DNA from: a bacterium
Lineage (GTDB): Bacteria; Myxococcota_A; UBA9042
Assembly: GCA_030425545.1 (NCBI GenBank)
Contig: JAUIAC010000006.1
Location: forward strand, 1-54,943
Reading direction: 5' to 3'
Length of the DNA: 54,943 nucleotides
Shown piece by piece: positions 1,207 through 9,322 of this stretch. Position 1 is the stretch's first letter, and every line of letters begins with the position of its first letter. The notes below the pieces were generated by a model that saw only the letters and a program-made list of their open reading frames with translations, did no database searches and was not told the origin of the DNA. The translations under genes and the position numbers were made by a program.

Positions 1207-2739
1207 TCAGTCATAGTAGAACCACTCCATGCGCCCAAAGGTCACAGCGCCGAAGAGCTGAACGACCATCCCAAGCACGATCAAGGCCTTGACCTTGCGC
1301 GAGAGGTGGCCGACCCGGAGCGCGAACACGCCCATCAACGCGGGCCAGAAGTCGAGCGCGAAGCGGTAGCCGAACTGCTGCCAGCCGTCGTTCTGGTAGA
1401 GCAGGGCCGGCGCAGCGACACAGCCCACCGCGATGGCGAGGTTGCGCACCAGGCTGGCCCGACGCCGCTCGAGGTCGGGCTCTGGCGCCGTCTCGGTGGG
1501 GTGCTGCGTGCGCCCGCCAAAGAGGGCGAAGAGCGCTGGCGTGCAGGCCAGGATGCCGAGCCCGTGACGGGTGATGTGCACGTAGGGCGCCTGGGCAGAC
1601 AGACGGGGCAGGTTGGTGAGCGCGGCGCTCAGGTTGTGGTTGAGGAAGATGAAGTTGAACAGGCCGTGGTCGCGCGTGGGCGCCCGGGTGCCTTCAAGGA
1701 GGTAGAAATGACCAAACTCCAGGGGGTTCTGCCAGCGGGCCCAGTTGAACCACGCCAAGGCCAGGCCCACCAGCGCGGCCGGCAGCGCGAAGAGGGCGAT
1801 TTTGCGTGCGGCCCGTAGGGCACCCACTCGGCCCTCACCACCGAGCCATCGCCCACCCTCGAAGAGGGCCTCCAGGGGGAAGAAGACCGACGCGAAGAGC
1901 AGCGGCGTGCGGGTGGCCACCCCCAGGCCCAGCAGCAGCCCGGCCAGCAGGGGACGGCGCGCGCCCTGGGCCGCCAGCAGGAAGAGGAAGTGGACCGTCA
2001 CGCCCATGGTCAGCGCCGTGAACCATACCGCTCCGCGGATCGCGCAGTACCAGGAGACGGTCCCGAAGGCGAACATGGCCACCAGCCACAGCCGGTCGCG
2101 AGCGCTGTGACGGAGCAAGCCCTGACCGTGGAGCCGGTTGAGCCAGTAGAGGAGGAGCATCGCCGACGCGGCGCCGAAGAGCAGGGTGAGCACGACGTCG
2201 TTGGTGTTGAAGCCGAACACCGCGACGAAGGGCATCATCACCACAGCGGGGAAGGGCGGGAAGCTGACCTTGTACTCGACGCGGTCGCAGCGGGCCCACT
2301 TCCGCTTGGGGTCGCAGCCGCGCTTCAGGTCCTTGGCCACATCGATGACCATCAGCTTGCCGTCGACGGTCCAGAACTCGTGTTTGCGGGGCCCCTTCTC
2401 GTTCTTGTAGGGGAAGACCCCGCGGACCTCTTCGCCGCCTTTGAGCACCAAGACGCGGTAGCTGGCCCAGTCGTTCCACCCCGCCTTGCCGCCGTTGGTC
2501 GCGCGCTTGATCGCCGCCTGATAGCCAGGCGGATCCCCGGGCTGAGGCTTGCCGTTGGCGTGCCGGCGGGGGGTGTCGGTGTCGACACGGCCGTTGAGGA
2601 AGGACCACGCCAGGTCTGTGAAGTGAAAGTGGGGGCTCGGCGTGGGCAGGAAATTCCACGAGGACAGGGCGTAGACGACCGTGACCACGACGCCGACGGC
2701 GAAGATGCGCAGCCGGGCCTGTGTCGACGAAGGGTCCAT
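1207..2739 (-). CDS. Multi-pass membrane protein, GT-C glycosyltransferase-like
   Basis: The product is 510 residues, with an N-terminal membrane segment (about 10-27), a roughly 140-residue hydrophilic exported loop, and then about eight to ten hydrophobic segments from residue 160 to the C-terminus. An acidic residue in the first exported loop (HFHFTDLAW) and the overall layout recall GT-C fold glycosyl- or mannosyltransferases that use lipid-phosphate sugar donors, but I see no diagnostic motif, so the function is inferred from topology only. The gene ends 7 bases before gshA and probably shares its transcript. The ATG at 2739 is preceded by a GC-rich hairpin region shared with the divergent selenoprotein gene. 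Confidence 0.6.
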   Translation of the reverse strand: MDPSSTQARLRIFAVGVVVTVVYALSSWNFLPTPSPHFHFTDLAWSFLNGRVDTDTPRRHANGKPQPGDPPGYQAAIKRATNGGKAGWNDWASYRVLVLKGGEEVRGVFPYKNEKGPRKHEFWTVDGKLMVIDVAKDLKRGCDPKRKWARCDRVEYKVSFPPFPAVVMMPFVAVFGFNTNDVVLTLLFGAASAMLLLYWLNRLHGQGLLRHSARDRLWLVAMFAFGTVSWYCAIRGAVWFTALTMGVTVHFLFLLAAQGARRPLLAGLLLGLGVATRTPLLFASVFFPLEALFEGGRWLGGEGRVGALRAARKIALFALPAALVGLALAWFNWARWQNPLEFGHFYLLEGTRAPTRDHGLFNFIFLNHNLSAALTNLPRLSAQAPYVHITRHGLGILACTPALFALFGGRTQHPTETAPEPDLERRRASLVRNLAIAVGCVAAPALLYQNDGWQQFGYRFALDFWPALMGVFALRVGHLSRKVKALIVLGMVVQLFGAVTFGRMEWFYYD

Positions 2740-3025: not shown

Positions 3026-4435
3026 ATGAACAAACGGACTCTGATCGCAGGCGTGGTCGCTGTCGCGCTCGCCGCAGGCGTGGGCGTGCTCGCGACCCGA
3101 GGGGGCCAGCAGGCCACCCAACCCAAGGTCGTCGCCGCGGCGCAGCCCAAGCTGCTGACGCTCGGCCTCGACAAGGCGCTCGAGAACCAGAAGGCGCTGT
3201 TGGCCAAGGCCGACGCGCTCGAGGCCAGCGACAAGCTGCCGCTGCCCGTGGCCCACTCAGCTGGCGCGCAGCACGTCGCTGCCATCGAGGCCGCCGAGGC
3301 GAAGGTCGTCGCGCCCTCGCCGGCCGAAGACAAGCGCAGCGTGGCGCTGTGGTTCTCCGGCAACGAGATCGGCGAGACCGACCCGTGCGGTTGAGCGCGT
3401 AACCCGCTGGGCGGTCTTGCCCGGCGATCACAGTGGATGAAGGAGCGGCGGGGCCGCTATCAGGCTGTCGCCGCGCTCGACGCGGGCGGCTGGCTGGTGT
3501 CGAACCCGCGCTTTCACGGCGACAAGCCGGGGCAGACCCGCGCGCGCGCCACAGCCTTTCTCAAAAGCTTCGCGGCGATGGGCTACATCGCGGTGAACGT
3601 GGGCGCCCACGAGCTCGTGCTGCCGCCGGCGGAGCTCGCCAAGCTGGCGAAGCGCTCGCGCGTGCAGCTCATCAGCGCCAACCTGGTGGGCAAGGACGGC
3701 AAGAAGCCGCTCTTTCAGCCCGCGGTGCTCCGCAAGGTCGGCGGGCTGAAGGTCGGCGTGTTCGGGCTGATCAGCGCCAACCCCGACGGCTACGGCCCGC
3801 TGGTGGCCAAGCGCCAGCTGAAGATCACCGACCCGGTCGCCGCCGCCCGCGCTGCGGTGGCGGTGCTGCGAAGGAACGGCGCCGACATCGTGGTGTGTCT
3901 CTCGGCCCTGCGGCGGACAGAGGTCGATCTGGTCGCGGAGAAGGTGCGCGGCGTCGACGTGATCCTCGGCTCGACGGCCATGGAGCTGTCGATGCAGCTG
4001 TCTGGGACGGGCAAGGGCTACTTCGCCGACACCTATACCAAGGGCAAGTACGTCGGCGAGCTGGTGCTCGTTCCGGGCGACGACACCAAGGCGTGGGTCG
4101 CGGCGGACCTCAAGGCCAGCCTCCGTCAGCAGGAGGCCAACCTCCGCCAGCAGGTCAGCAACCTGCAGTCGCAGCTGAAGTCCGCGTCCGAGCCGGACTC
4201 GCCGATCAAGCTCACACCCGAGTCACGCAAGGTGATGCAGCGTGAGCTGGTGCGCATGCGGGCCAAGCTGCAGCGGGTCGGGTTGGAGCTGGAGGGGGAC
4301 GCCAACGTCCCGGCCGGCGCAGGGAAGCTGCGGCTCTCCATGTCCGCGCTCGACAGCAAGATCGACGACGAGCCGCGTGTGCTGCGGGCCGTCGACGCGT
4401 ACAAGAAGCGCTTCCCCTCCAAGCCTGGGCACTGA
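3026..4435 (+). CDS. Putative selenoprotein: membrane-anchored metallophosphoesterase/5'-nucleotidase-like protein with in-frame UGA (Sec123)
   Basis: One reading frame of 470 codons holds a TGA at 3392-3394 (codon 123). Residues 1-24 form a signal anchor, so the rest is probably periplasmic. Before the TGA the protein reads GETDPCG; after it, ARNPLGGLARR. UshA-like phosphoesterase relatives have EPCGC...GGLxRR there, so the TGA replaces the second Cys and would give Cys121-Gly122-Sec123. Downstream similarity to the family continues: SANLVGKDGKK, GLKVGVFGLISAN, GADIVVCLSAL and GVDVILGS, then a coiled coil near residues 350-420. The usual metal-binding residues look replaced (LSAL for LSHL, GST for GGH, GAHE for GNHE), so phosphatase activity is doubtful and a redox role is plausible. 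A SECIS-like hairpin begins 11 bases after the TGA. Without Sec insertion translation would stop at 122 residues; an automatic annotation would show two fragments. ATG 3026 has GGAGA upstream. Confidence 0.85.
3405..3426 (+). promoter_or_regulatory. Bacterial SECIS element
   Basis: The arms CGCTGGGC (3405-3412) and GCCCGGCG (3419-3426) pair over 8 bp with one G-U pair and close a six-base loop GGTCTT (3413-3418). The first loop G is the 19th base after the TGA. E. coli fdhF has the same GGUCU loop beginning at the same distance. These loop bases are the ones SelB recognises in fdhF. The codons inside the hairpin and just after it use unusual third positions for this genome (GGT, CTT, CGA, TCA), as expected if RNA structure is under selection. 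Confidence 0.85.
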
Positions 4436-4486: not shown

Positions 4487-5230
4487 ATGACCGATGTGTA
4501 CCTCGCGCGGCTGCGCACGTTTCTGAACAGCGGCGCGTCGGCCGAGCCAGAGGCGTCCGCCCTCGCGTCCGGCGAAGCTCCCCGAGCCGCTACCGTGGCT
4601 GCGGCGTCGCTCGACGCGGGCCTTGATTTCCTCGCCGGCGACGCGCCTGACGACTTCCTCGGCGTGACCGAAGGCACGGCTGAGCCCGGCCCGGCGCTCG
4701 CCGCGGCCGCTCCCCTGTCTGGCTCTCAGAGCCCAGCGCGCGCTGCGGCGGCGGAGGCCCTGCTCGCCGGCTTGGAGGCTGCGGCGCCCTTGCCTCTGTC
4801 CGGGGTCCTCGACGCGATCGAGACGAGCGACGGAGCGCCCGACTACGACGCGACGTGGGTCGCGCTCGCGTCTGTCGCCGCTGGGGAAGGGCAGGGCACG
4901 GCGACTCGGCACGGCCGCGTGAGTCAGCTCGTGCGTGGCGCGCTTCAGAGCGGTGCGCCCGAGCTGGGCCTCTTGGCGTGCGAGGCGGTGCGTCGGCTCT
5001 CGCTCGCCGAGCTGCAAGACGCGGTCGCCCAGCTGCTCTGTGACAGCGCGGAGGGGCTCGGGTTTCGCGGGGTCGAGCTGGTGTTGGACTGTCTCGCGGA
5101 GGTGGGCGACGGACGCTGCGTGCGCTCCATGGAGGCCGCGTTGGTGAGCGCCCGCGACGTGCTCACGGAGCACCAGGCCTGGCGCGCCCGCCATATCGTC
5201 CAGCTGATCCGACGCGACCACCGCCGCTGA
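4487..5230 (+). CDS. Hypothetical protein, Ala-rich N-terminus with HEAT-like helical C-terminal half
   Basis: The product is 247 residues and I do not recognise the family. The first 100 residues are rich in Ala, Glu and Ser and probably disordered. From about residue 100 the sequence alternates amphipathic helices with leucines in register (LLACEAVRRLSLAELQD, GVELVLDCLAEVGD), resembling HEAT or armadillo-type repeats used in protein contacts. No signal peptide, so cytoplasmic. It follows the selenoprotein gene by 51 bases in the same direction and may share its transcript. ATG 4487 is preceded by GGTGGGA; an in-frame TTG at 4472 is less likely. It ends 12 bases from the convergent lamin-tail gene. 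Confidence 0.6.
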   Translation: MTDVYLARLRTFLNSGASAEPEASALASGEAPRAATVAAASLDAGLDFLAGDAPDDFLGVTEGTAEPGPALAAAAPLSGSQSPARAAAAEALLAGLEAAAPLPLSGVLDAIETSDGAPDYDATWVALASVAAGEGQGTATRHGRVSQLVRGALQSGAPELGLLACEAVRRLSLAELQDAVAQLLCDSAEGLGFRGVELVLDCLAEVGDGRCVRSMEAALVSARDVLTEHQAWRARHIVQLIRRDHRR

Positions 5231-5242
5231 GCGCTGCGGCAG

Positions 5243-8200
5243 CTACCGCCGCACAGCCCACGGCTGGGCCTGGAACCAACGCCACACCCGCTGCTTGAGC
5301 TCACGCTGCGCCCATGGCTCACCGCGCCACGAGGGCATCTCGGCAGAGAAGGCCGGCGGCGGCGGGGCGGCCGGGCCACACGAGGCGTCATTCTCAGCGC
5401 CCGGGGTGCCCTTGTCGCCAGCGCCAAAGACCTTGCTTGCGAGGCACCAGGCGGTCCCGGCGTCATTGCCCGTCGCTGTCACGAACTTCGGTGAGAGCTG
5501 AATCGCCACGCCGGACACCTTGCCCGGCCAGCCGAACTTGCCCGCGGTGGTCTGGTACTTGACCTCGTCCACCAGCGTCCCGTCGGCCTTCAAGAGCGCG
5601 ATGCGGCCGCCGCTCGAGCTGTTCGACAGCGCGATGCTGCTGCCGTAGGCCCACGCCGCGGTGACGCCGCCGTTGACCTTGGTGTCCGCCTTGATCGCCA
5701 GCACGATGCGTCCCTTGGCCGGCACCACGACCGAGCCGCTCGCGGGCTTGATCGGCACGCCGCCCTTGTCCTTGTCCTCCAGCTGCCAGCCGGTGATGTC
5801 CACGGCCTTGTCGCCCGGGTTGGTCAGCTCCAGCCACTCGCCGCTGGCGTCGCTCGTCGCCTTCGGGTCGAAGAGGATCTCGGTGATGACCACCTCGCCG
5901 GTCTGGGCTGGGCTCACGACCTCGTAGGCGCACTTGCTGGTGCATCCGTCGCCGTCCTTGGTGTTGCCGTCGTCGCACTCCTCGCCCTTCTCCTGCTTGC
6001 CGTTGCCGCAGACCGGCGCTGGCGTCTTGGCGCAGCCCACGCTGGCGTTGCCCGGCGTGCCCTTGTCGCCCTTGCCGTAGGTCGTGGTGGCGACGCACCA
6101 GCTCGCGCCCGCGTCGTTGTCCTTGGCGTTGAGCTTGGCGGGGTCGAGGTGCCAGGCCACCCCGGCCTCTGCCGCAGGCCAGCCGGCCTTGCCGTCCGCG
6201 TAGGTCACCTGGTCGATGACCGTGCCGTCGGGGTTCATCAGCGCGACGGTGTCGCCGCCGTTGCTGAGGCCGAAGCCAGACCAGGTGCCCGACGCGAGCA
6301 GGCCACCGTTGTCCGTCTTGCTGGCGTCGCTGGCCAGCACGACATAGTCGCCCGCCGGCACGATGATGCCGCTGCCGTCGCCGTAGATGACGTGGCCCGT
6401 CACGGTCACCTCGTCGGCCAGCATGTAGCCCTCGAGGTTCACGTCGGCCGTGCCCGGGTTGTAGATCTCGATCCACTCCCCCTTGCTGTCGCTCACGGCC
6501 TTGGGGTTCGACATCAGCTCGGTGATGACCAGCGCCCCCGCTGCCAGCTTCGCCGGCTCGACCGTGCACGCCGCCGAGCAGCCGTCGCCGCCGACGGTGT
6601 TGCCGTCGTCGCAGGCCTCGTCGAGCTCCACCTTCTTGTCGCCGCAGGTCGCCTTGGGCTCCTTGGTGCACGCGTCGCCGACGCCGTCGTTGTCCGAGTC
6701 GAGCTGGTCCTTGTTGGCCTTCGTGGGGCAGTTGTCGCAGGCGTTGCCGATGCCGTCCTTGTCGCTGTCCGACTGGCTCGAGTTGGCCTTGTTCGGGCAG
6801 TTGTCGGTGGCGTCGGGGGCCTCGTCGAAGTCCTTGTCCGGCGGGCACACCGCGTTGGGCTGCCCCGGGCTCCCAAAGTCGCCGGCGCCGAAGGTCGTCT
6901 TCGACTTGCACCACGCCGCGCCCTCGTCGTTGCCGGTCGCGCTCAGCATGCTGCCGCTCAGCTGCGCGCTGTAGCCTGTCTTGAACTTGGGCCAACCGCC
7001 AGCGCCTGAGACATAGACGACCTCGTCGATGACCGTCTCGCCCCAGACCAGCTGGAGCGTACCCTTGGTGTTGGGGAGCGTCGTGCTGCTGTACCCGTAG
7101 GCCATCACCACGCCGCCGTTCTTGGTCTTGTCTGCGTTGATGCCGAGCACGGCGTAGGCCTTGGCCCCGAGCTCCACCTTCGCCGTGCCAGCGTTGATCA
7201 CGTGGACCTTGCTGCCCCGCCGGAGCTCGACGCCGTTGAGGTCGAGCGTCTTGTCGGTGGGGTTGTAGACCTCGATCCACTCGCCGACGTCGTCGTTGAC
7301 CGCGGTGGTGTCGACCATGAGCTCGGTGACCACCAGCTCGCCAGCCTTCAGAGGGGTCTCGGGGTTGCATCCGGGGCTGCAGCCGTCGCCGGGGAGCGCG
7401 TTGCCGTCGTCGCACGCCTCGCCGCCGTCCTTGACGCCGTTGCCGCAGTAGACCTTCTCGCAGGCGTCGCCGATGCCGTCGCTGTTGCCGTCCTTCTGGT
7501 CCGCGTTGCCCTTCTGCGGGCAGTTGTCGCAGGCGTCGCCGACGCCGTCCTTGTCACTGTCGTCCTGGAACTTGTTCTTCACCGAGACGCAGTTGTCGAC
7601 GCCGTCGGGGATCTTGTCGTTGTCGTCGTCGAGCGTCCAACCGGCGCACGAGGGGTTGGCCTGCCCCGGGCTGCCGAGGTCGCCGTCGCCGAAGACCGAC
7701 TGCCCCCGGCACCAATAGGTCTGCCCGTCGTTGGCCTTGGCGCTGGTCTGGGTGGGGTCGAGGCTCAGCGATACGCCCGCGCTGATCTTCCAGGTCTTGT
7801 CCCAGGCCATGGTGTCGACCACCACCAGGGAGTTGTTGTTGGTCCCGTCCTTGGCCTTGTGGAAGCTGACGAGACTGAGCGTCGTCTTCGAGTTGCCGAT
7901 GGTCAGCTTGCCGTAGGCCGCGTCCACCGGCGCGCCGCCGTTGACCTTGGGGTCGAGCTTGGCGCCGAGCACCGCGTAGCCCTTGGCCTTGACCACCACC
8001 GGCTGGAGCCCGGTGACCGGCTTCCAGAAGGGCTTGTCGGTGCCGACCTGCACGCGGAGACCGTTGATGGTCACGTCGGTGTCGCCGGGGTTGTAGACCT
8101 CGAGCCACTCGCCGTTGTCGTCGCTGACCGTGGCGGGGTTGGGCAGCACCTCCGTGATCACCAGGCTGCCCTCTGCGAGCTCCGCTTCGATCTGGCAGTA

Positions 8201-9322
8201 CTTGCTGCAGCCGTCGCCGCTGAACAGGTTGCTGTCGTCGCAGGCTTCGGCCTGGCTCTTGACGCCGTCGCCGCAGCCCGGGATGGCGTCCGGCTCGCAG
8301 GCGTCGCCCACGTCGTTGCCGTCCTGGTCGGTCTGGGTCGGGTTGGGCACGTTGGGGCAGTTGTCCTTGTCGTCGACGACGCCGTCCTTGTCCGCGTCCT
8401 TGGCGTCGCAGCCGCCGTTGGCAGCGCCCGGCGTGCCCGCGTCACCCGAGGGCAGCTCGGCGGTCGCGGCACACCAGGCGGTGCTCACGTCGTTGTCTTT
8501 GGCCGTGCTCTGGTCTTTGGACAGCTGCATCGCCTTGCCGCTGAGCGAGGGCCAGCCCTTGCTCTTGTCCCACAGGACGCGGTCCACCTCGACGCCGTTG
8601 CTCTCGAGCACCAGCGCGTCGAGCGAGTTGGCCAGGTTGATCTCGCTGCCGTACGCGTGGTCGACCTTGGCGCCACCGTTGACGCTCATGTCCGCGTTGC
8701 GGCCGAACACGAAGTAGGCGCCGGCGGCCACCTTCACGGTCGCGCCGGCGCCGCCGTCTCCCTTCACCACGTACTTGTCGTTCTTGTCGTCGCGGATCAC
8801 GACGCCGGTGAGGTCGACCTCAGCGCCGCTGTCATTGCGCACCTCGAACCACTCGCCGTCACTGTCGGAGAGCTTGCCCTTGCCGTAGGGGTTGTAGTGG
8901 ATCTCGGTGATCACCAGGTCGCCTGCCTTGAGGTCCGGGCCGGGCACCCGGGTGCTGGTGTCGCCGCCGCTGTCTCCCCCCCCGTCCGTGGCGTCGCTAC
9001 ACAGGTCCTGACTGCCGGTGCAGATGCCGCCGTTGCAGCGGTCTCCGCCGGTGCACGGGTCGCCGTCGTCGCAGGTGGCCTTGTTCTGCGGGTGGGTGCA
9101 CGCCCCCTGCTCGCAGAAGTCGTCCGTGCAGGGGTCGTTGTCGTCGCAGGCGGCGCTGTCACTGCACTCGCCGCTGTCGAAGAGCACGGTGCCGTCGGAG
9201 CCCGCGTCGGTGGGCAGGCCGCCAGCGTCGTTGCCAGGCGCGTCTTCGGTGCCACACCCCACTGCGCCGAGGAGCAAGGCCGCTGAGAGGGCGAGAACAC
9301 GGGCTTTCGGAAGGACGAACAT
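5243..9322 (-). CDS. Giant lipoprotein with five lamin-tail domains, Myxococcus Cys-rich repeats and thrombospondin type-3 repeats
   Basis: A 1359-residue secreted lipoprotein. The N-terminus is a lipoprotein signal peptide ending LLGAVGC (Cys23). A Cys/Asp-rich segment (about 50-110) precedes five lamin-tail domains, each opening with a variant of the motif VITE(I/L)...GEWxE(V/I/L)xN. Between them lie four Myxococcus-type disulfide repeats, of the pattern CGxG...ACDDGN...GDGC...C, and runs of thrombospondin type-3 Ca-binding repeats such as DxDxDGxGDAC. Lamin-tail domains in secreted bacterial proteins are usually found with nucleases or adhesins; no enzymatic domain is visible here, so an adhesive or structural surface role is likely. 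The last 35 residues are basic and Trp-rich. ATG 9322 starts the signal peptide. It is divergent from the TPR gene. Confidence 0.85.
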   Translation of the reverse strand: MFVLPKARVLALSAALLLGAVGCGTEDAPGNDAGGLPTDAGSDGTVLFDSGECSDSAACDDNDPCTDDFCEQGACTHPQNKATCDDGDPCTGGDRCNGGICTGSQDLCSDATDGGGDSGGDTSTRVPGPDLKAGDLVITEIHYNPYGKGKLSDSDGEWFEVRNDSGAEVDLTGVVIRDDKNDKYVVKGDGGAGATVKVAAGAYFVFGRNADMSVNGGAKVDHAYGSEINLANSLDALVLESNGVEVDRVLWDKSKGWPSLSGKAMQLSKDQSTAKDNDVSTAWCAATAELPSGDAGTPGAANGGCDAKDADKDGVVDDKDNCPNVPNPTQTDQDGNDVGDACEPDAIPGCGDGVKSQAEACDDSNLFSGDGCSKYCQIEAELAEGSLVITEVLPNPATVSDDNGEWLEVYNPGDTDVTINGLRVQVGTDKPFWKPVTGLQPVVVKAKGYAVLGAKLDPKVNGGAPVDAAYGKLTIGNSKTTLSLVSFHKAKDGTNNNSLVVVDTMAWDKTWKISAGVSLSLDPTQTSAKANDGQTYWCRGQSVFGDGDLGSPGQANPSCAGWTLDDDNDKIPDGVDNCVSVKNKFQDDSDKDGVGDACDNCPQKGNADQKDGNSDGIGDACEKVYCGNGVKDGGEACDDGNALPGDGCSPGCNPETPLKAGELVVTELMVDTTAVNDDVGEWIEVYNPTDKTLDLNGVELRRGSKVHVINAGTAKVELGAKAYAVLGINADKTKNGGVVMAYGYSSTTLPNTKGTLQLVWGETVIDEVVYVSGAGGWPKFKTGYSAQLSGSMLSATGNDEGAAWCKSKTTFGAGDFGSPGQPNAVCPPDKDFDEAPDATDNCPNKANSSQSDSDKDGIGNACDNCPTKANKDQLDSDNDGVGDACTKEPKATCGDKKVELDEACDDGNTVGGDGCSAACTVEPAKLAAGALVITELMSNPKAVSDSKGEWIEIYNPGTADVNLEGYMLADEVTVTGHVIYGDGSGIIVPAGDYVVLASDASKTDNGGLLASGTWSGFGLSNGGDTVALMNPDGTVIDQVTYADGKAGWPAAEAGVAWHLDPAKLNAKDNDAGASWCVATTTYGKGDKGTPGNASVGCAKTPAPVCGNGKQEKGEECDDGNTKDGDGCTSKCAYEVVSPAQTGEVVITEILFDPKATSDASGEWLELTNPGDKAVDITGWQLEDKDKGGVPIKPASGSVVVPAKGRIVLAIKADTKVNGGVTAAWAYGSSIALSNSSSGGRIALLKADGTLVDEVKYQTTAGKFGWPGKVSGVAIQLSPKFVTATGNDAGTAWCLASKVFGAGDKGTPGAENDASCGPAAPPPPAFSAEMPSWRGEPWAQRELKQRVWRWFQAQPWAVRR

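Follow-up and report, generated by a model that had tools for sequence, protein, structure and literature searches.

The gene at positions 3026-4435 (+ strand) of the window, as we call the whole stretch of 54,943 nucleotides analysed here, very probably encodes a selenoprotein. To the whole account, in which selenocysteine (Sec) would be inserted at an in-frame UGA by means of tRNA-Sec, SelB and a SECIS element into a protein from a divergent branch of the UshA-like CxU selenoproteins with a suggested redox role, we assign a probability of roughly 85%. According to this account, the UGA at 3392-3394 would be read as selenocysteine by the tRNA-Sec and SelB of the host, and a predicted SECIS hairpin directly after the UGA would guide the insertion.

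A first, sequence-only reading of the window had proposed one reading frame split only by this TGA, and both its coordinates and its motif were right. The frame runs from the ATG at 3026 to the TGA at 4433-4435, is open except for TGA 3392-3394 and, with that TGA translated as a residue, gives an unbroken protein of 469 residues, a predicted UshA-like selenoprotein. The TGA is residue 123, in the context DPCG-U-ARNPLGGLARR, and closes a Cys-Gly-Sec (CxU) motif at residues 121-123 (3386..3394, + strand). Close to the start, residues 6-24 (3041..3097, + strand) form a hydrophobic stretch with a mean hydropathy of 2.41 in a 19-residue window, the maximum of the protein, which we predict to be an N-terminal signal or membrane anchor.

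Long frames split by a TGA are weak evidence when taken alone, because, in DNA of this composition, 11 TGA codons in this window have 120 or more open codons before them and 300 or more after them when counted mechanically. We have therefore rejected the split frame as evidence in itself; from the alignments, it is homology that lifts the in-frame TGA above chance. As an aside, two such joins (7007 and 9322) are presumably due to chance. They lie on the strand opposite a gene (5243-9322, - strand) whose product of 1359 residues contains five stretches of Lamin Tail Domain together with thrombospondin type 3 and DUF4215 repeats.

The homologue search covered 137 genomes, from the window's own out to relatives at phylum level, and gave 122 matching rows from 77 genomes. 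We examined 88 of the 122 rows at the codon, including every row flagged with an inner TGA. The remaining 34 rows were unflagged for stops; some of these matches begin 3' of the codon, so that a TGA outside the match is possible there, and a row of the same kind in G032 turned out to have a TGA (L072). At the codon aligned to TGA 3392-3394 we found TGA in 44 of the 88 loci and Cys (TGC or TGT) in 39, with another residue or no alignment in the other five (L077, L095, L100, L107 and L108). The 44 TGA copies, the window gene among them, come from 44 distinct genomes across the phylum. The sequence-only reading had held that relatives carry Cys at position 123, and this was borne out, as was the existence of further UGA-containing orthologues. 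Two of the Cys copies are in the window's own genome: L010, identical at 137 of 372 aligned positions, and the more distant L011, with a cytochrome-like C-terminus. The first Cys of the CxU motif is present in 42 of the 44 TGA copies and replaced by Ser in L049 and by Thr in L094, so not every TGA copy has a Cys-Sec pair. Regarding other collections, the plasmid collection gave no match, the collection of genome contigs gave a single distant locus, from Anaerococcus (27%), and a profile search of the protein database added just two distant proteins, both with a cytochrome domain.

In order to see how the two sides of the TGA evolve, we looked at substitution levels in pairs of copies. pN was lower after the TGA (344 codons) than before it (95-100 codons) in 10 out of 10 compared pairs, and pN was below pS both before and after the TGA in 10 out of 10. 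By this measure, the sequence that follows the TGA codes for protein and has been kept by purifying selection. One could argue that the TGA is nevertheless a nonsense change, real or artefactual, in an ordinary Cys gene, since the assembly is fragmented (945 contigs) and TGA-split long frames recur in the window. A pseudogene or an assembly error would not be expected to put a TGA at one and the same codon of 44 genomes, to leave pN below pS downstream of it in every pair, or to come with GGCGGTCT, the conserved sequence described below, in every TGA copy versus 4 of 16 comparable Cys copies. Hence, we consider this explanation extremely unlikely.

The public databases present the gene in another way. 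The downstream piece (3437..4435, + strand) is called there as a separate protein of 332 residues (P0002), and our search of a set of 5.8 billion proteins, with the best 7997 candidates scored, also returned its 332-residue relatives P0003-P0007. P0003, P0006 and P0007 start only downstream of the UGA, and the Sec-containing part is therefore missed; P0004 and P0005 are equally long. The two named records among P0003-P0007, both from the same genus, read 'hypothetical protein [Myxococcales bacterium]', so nothing in them marks the branch as selenoproteins, and gene callers do split the gene as had been predicted. These records of the downstream part on its own, together with an ATG at 3437 only 42 nt after the TGA, could also suggest that translation stops at the UGA, with a second start at ATG 3437, and that the two pieces act as a split protein. 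However, the residues that lie between the UGA and ATG 3437 (ARNPLGGLARRSQW in the window) are conserved in Cys homologues, whose frame runs on without a stop, Cys or TGA occupies the codon in 83 of the 88 loci, and a restart is not expected to need GGCGGTCT, which makes two separate products highly improbable.

The selenoprotein reading calls for a SECIS element, and a bacterial SECIS hairpin is predicted at 3405..3426 (+ strand) from the conservation of GGCGGTCT, the pairing of the stem and a GGTCT placed as in E. coli fdhF; a SECIS-like hairpin after the TGA had been claimed before, and our data agree with it. The loop bases GGUCU at 3413-3417 occupy positions 22-26 when the U of the UGA is numbered 1. 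In all 44 TGA copies, GGCGGTCT encodes Gly-Gly-Leu shortly after the TGA, at residue +6 from it in 43 copies and at +5 in L059. Sixteen Cys copies share this Gly-Gly-Leu, and among them only 4 have GGCGGTCT and 5 have GGTCT. The differences between TGA and Cys copies give Fisher p values of 1.3e-9 and 1.3e-8, respectively, both of them optimistic because related rows do not count as independent. At other places in these TGA genes, only 14 of 146 Gly-Leu pairs are encoded by GGTCTN. In our comparison this codon-level conservation is the main evidence for the hairpin, and not its energy: the folding energy is ordinary (z -1.29, with 23 of 200 shuffles folding as well), and we rejected it as evidence.

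The stem was analysed in 43 TGA copies (41 distinct), leaving out L059, which has three bases fewer. Positions 14-21/28-35 were paired in 82.6% of cells, a level reached by 0 of 500 shuffles (76.3%), and slid registers gave at most 54.0%. Changes on both sides of a pair (for example, G-C to U-A) were found in 15 cells, and 0 of 500 shuffles had as many; on two other measures, how many pairs are changed on both sides and how many further pair types occur, 98 and 91 of 500 shuffles, respectively, did at least as well. A register slid by +3 had 24 cells with changes on both sides versus 15, and a covariation score of 0.167 versus 0.168, but only 32.6% pairing. These values should be read knowing that the tested structure was derived from the fold of one of these same sequences, which favours it. 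In the 16 Cys copies the same stem was paired in 57.8% of cells, the level of their shuffles. According to these comparisons, stem pairing is supported and covariation is supported only in part, as the controls are mixed; for that reason covariation was rejected as stand-alone proof.

Rfam gave no match to the hairpin at gathering scores and, over 3370-3460, only four chance-level matches (E 1.3-5.7). A hairpin model that we built from the TGA copies, the window hairpin itself being among them, matched one place genome-wide at E up to 1, namely the window hairpin, among the best 150 of 8094 candidates. For bacterial SECIS elements, an apical loop 16-37 nt after the UGA (PMC10778597) and an invariant G in the loop (PMC4607533) have been described. 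In the window gene the gap from the UGA to GGUCU is 18 nt, inside the published range, and in L059 it is 15 nt, outside it. The L059 copy (1373-1414, - strand), with its three bases fewer between the TGA and the loop motif, scored 29.4 bits with the hairpin model. With 44 UGA and 39 Cys copies, this family offers a useful control for work on bacterial SECIS elements, as the same peptide can be compared with and without the RNA constraint.

Reading UGA as Sec also depends on the sel genes, which the sequence-only reading expected to find in the genome; three of the components are there and one was not found. In the host assembly, 7.44 Mb in 945 contigs and 92% complete, we identified a tRNA-Sec (76.9 bits, anticodon TCA), a SelB with 244.5 bits against a cut-off of 242.25 (GTPase, SelB beta-barrel and winged-helix domains were matched, one winged-helix match falling just under its cut-off) and a SelA whose two pieces lie on separate contigs, C420 and C30. 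For SelD, the search of this 92%-complete assembly gave nothing better than a match of 20.3 bits, which we count as not found. All three same-genus genomes have SelD above cut-off, so its absence is likely due to a gap in the host assembly; the TetR-like gene adjoining selD in the same-genus genome G001 was not found in the host assembly (G000) either. In two of the same-genus genomes, G001 and G003, selD contains an in-frame TGA (L111, G001:C154:15282-16220), and from this SelD itself would probably be a selenoprotein in both.

Across the genomes searched, tRNA-Sec was detected in 38 of the 44 with a TGA copy versus 43 of the 93 others (Fisher p 5.7e-6). The six TGA-copy genomes with no convincing tRNA-Sec are G031, G038, G039, G059, G079 and G106, two of them 97% complete. 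A laxer search in these six gave best matches of 41.6-48.3 bits, two of which (48.3 and 47.0) touch the gathering score of 47, and all were counted as unproven. That SelD was not found in the host assembly could be taken as a sign that the UGA is decoded mostly as Cys, Trp or some other residue, whether through near-cognate readthrough or through an altered genetic code. Against this, tRNA-Sec, SelB and SelA are present in the host, UGA also terminates the window gene itself (4433-4435) and 13 of the 29 TGA copies with a fetched end, and at the 44 non-TGA loci we found 39 Cys and no Trp. We thus regard decoding as another residue as very unlikely, and keep selenocysteine as the probable reading of this UGA.

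Regarding the family, the sequence-only reading had called the protein a probable novel selenoprotein, and at the level of the family it was mistaken in this. UshA-like COG0737 CxU selenoproteins were listed in the 2008 marine GOS survey (PMC2398784), and UshA-like selenoproteins again in reviews of 2022 (PMC9312934) and 2026 (PMC13188914). NCBIfam has two '(seleno)protein' models, UshA_like_PCGU (NF041198) and UshA_like_Sel_2 (NF049981, family 2). Because of this listing in 2008 and the existence of these models, the window protein is not a new selenoprotein family. As a whole, the earlier reading is partly supported.

We then placed the window protein relative to these models. Against NF041198 it scored 194.3 bits, below the cut-off of 275; the Cys-Gly-Sec or Cys-Gly-Cys motif of the model is present, and the alignment reaches only profile position 377 of 519, leaving out the cytochrome-like C-terminal part, which the window protein lacks. 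Against NF049981 it gave 56.4 bits over residues 107-378, below the cut-off of 140. With Pfam the window protein had no match below E 0.01; the weak matches were of coiled-coil type, and none was to a heme family. A tree was built from 50 of the 83 homologues that have TGA or Cys at the codon, and in it the window protein falls in a branch of 26 members (17 TGA and 9 Cys) with 100/100 support, all from its own taxonomic family. None of the 26 reaches the NF041198 cut-off of 275: the highest score is 207.3 and L058 has no match at E 1e-25, all members except the window protein having been scanned from 40 residues before the codon. Among 12 homologues scanned outside the branch, only the cytochrome-fused L069 passes (296.2 bits), and the other eleven scored 149.7-271.5 bits, seven of these being truncated by the limits of the stretch used. 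Since the cut-off is strict, the separation also rests on the tree and on the missing C-terminal part. By these three comparisons the window protein belongs to a separate, divergent branch of UshA-like CxU selenoproteins and is not a member of NF041198. Among the selenoprotein papers listed for Myxococcota or for UshA-like proteins, no title or abstract opening describes this branch.

Sec and Cys seem to have been exchanged within the family. In the branch, the Cys copies L030 and L031 are nested within a group of TGA copies (support 99/97, then 97/97). L031 (2491-2535, - strand), whose Cys codon is TGT, matches the hairpin model at 38.8 bits though it is absent from the sequences of the model; for L030 the model found nothing at E up to 1. 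The simplest reading is that L031 probably represents a recent change from Sec to Cys with a leftover, decaying SECIS. In total, the model matches at this place in 4 of 13 Cys loci, the other three being L054 (25.6 bits), L058 (16.2) and L053 (15.8). Besides, three pairs of tree sisters consist of one TGA and one Cys copy: L042/L057 in G023, L040/L054 in G007 and L051/L062 in G036. As placed in the tree, these are duplicates with a divergent Sec/Cys fate.

The genes around the window gene were also compared. Its divergent upstream neighbour (1207..2739, - strand) is weakly glycosyltransferase-like (NF047440, 31.4 bits, cut-off 200) and is kept in 6 of 7 relatives' stretches. The downstream neighbour (4487..5230, + strand) encodes 247 residues with no Pfam or NCBIfam match, and a gene 36-45% identical to its product lies downstream of the homologue in 6 of the 7 stretches; both neighbours are absent in L120. 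The second gene upstream (3-1190, - strand) is glutamate-cysteine ligase-like (TIGR01436, 329.7 bits, cut-off 463.15) and is kept near the selenoprotein gene in 5 of the 7 stretches. By analogy, we have counted the proximity of this gene as consistent with a redox role, and have done the same for the cytochrome-like part carried by more distant relatives.

To what extent the protein is still a phosphoesterase is a separate matter. The sequence-only reading had called the family phosphoesterase-like, which is correct by descent: the profile matches E. coli UshA with an hhalign probability of 99.2 (E 2.6e-19, 245 columns), as well as solved 5'-nucleotidase structures. We take the metal ligands of UshA to be D41, H43, D84, N116, H217, H252 and Q254, and in counting them we accepted His at Q254. 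The window protein keeps 0 of these 7, and neither do 25 of the 26 branch members keep any. Over all 50 homologues compared, 31 keep no ligand and 19 keep one to four, one of these 19 being in the branch. In this alignment, the loss of the metal site is nearly complete in the branch and partial outside it. With none of the seven ligands kept, the name 'phosphoesterase' therefore speaks of descent and not of function. The CGU motif aligns to a gap in UshA directly after its first metal motif.

An enzyme that has remained a phosphoesterase, with Sec as a metal ligand or nucleophile, would share the Sec part with our preferred account. The profile matches to UshA and the 5'-nucleotidases speak for it, as do the one to four ligands kept by some homologues outside the branch and the residue aligned to UshA H117, which is kept in the window protein and in 18 of the 26 branch members. 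But the lack of every ligand in the window protein and in nearly all of its branch, together with the position of CGU in the alignment gap, makes a surviving phosphoesterase unlikely, though less so than the three alternatives that dispute Sec itself. The best inference from the sequence is a membrane-anchored periplasmic protein with Cys121 and Sec123 as a redox pair. The product would keep a UshA-type profile from which the seven metal ligands have gone, and would carry in their place Cys-Gly-Sec, as an insertion that directly follows what used to be the first metal-binding motif. The hydrophobic N-terminus would likely hold the protein at the membrane with its domain in the periplasm, where, judging by the motif and by analogy, the Cys-Sec pair may form a reversible selenenylsulphide as the redox centre. 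A wider evolutionary reading, which we put forward tentatively and at slightly less than even odds, is that a hydrolase fold has turned into a periplasmic selenol/thiol oxidoreductase, with the CGU loop sitting at the dismantled metal site, Sec and Cys still exchanging and a leftover SECIS in a Cys copy. Since the metal site is lost in a family that bears an esterase name, experimenters should test redox chemistry first.

In order to contextualize these results, we compared the window gene with known systems. E. coli UshA, a 5'-nucleotidase/UDP-sugar hydrolase, has a homologous N-terminal metallophosphoesterase-type domain, but the alignment to the window protein ends at UshA residue 305 of 550, and the window protein differs in lacking the metal ligands and in having CGU inserted. 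SoxB thiosulfohydrolase (TIGR04486) belongs to the same superfamily and gives a distant match of 41.4 bits, far under its cut-off of 550. Family 2 (NF049981) matches weakly over the residues given above; it is a CxxU family according to the 2026 review (PMC13188914), whereas the window protein is CxU. At the RNA level, the SECIS of E. coli fdhF shares with the window gene a GGUCU at 22-26 from the UGA and a hairpin directly downstream of it, while its stem sequence and gene family are different, and the fdhF region (L112) gave no match to the hairpin model built from the TGA copies. Finally, NF041198 has the CGU motif in the same place and a UshA-type domain. It differs from the window protein in its cytochrome-like C-terminal region, seen in L061, L068 and L090, and the cytochrome-fused copies usually have EPCGU where the window protein has DPCGU. 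The NF041198-type L069, a cytochrome-fused TGA copy from the same phylum, nonetheless has the same GGCGGTCT as the window gene.
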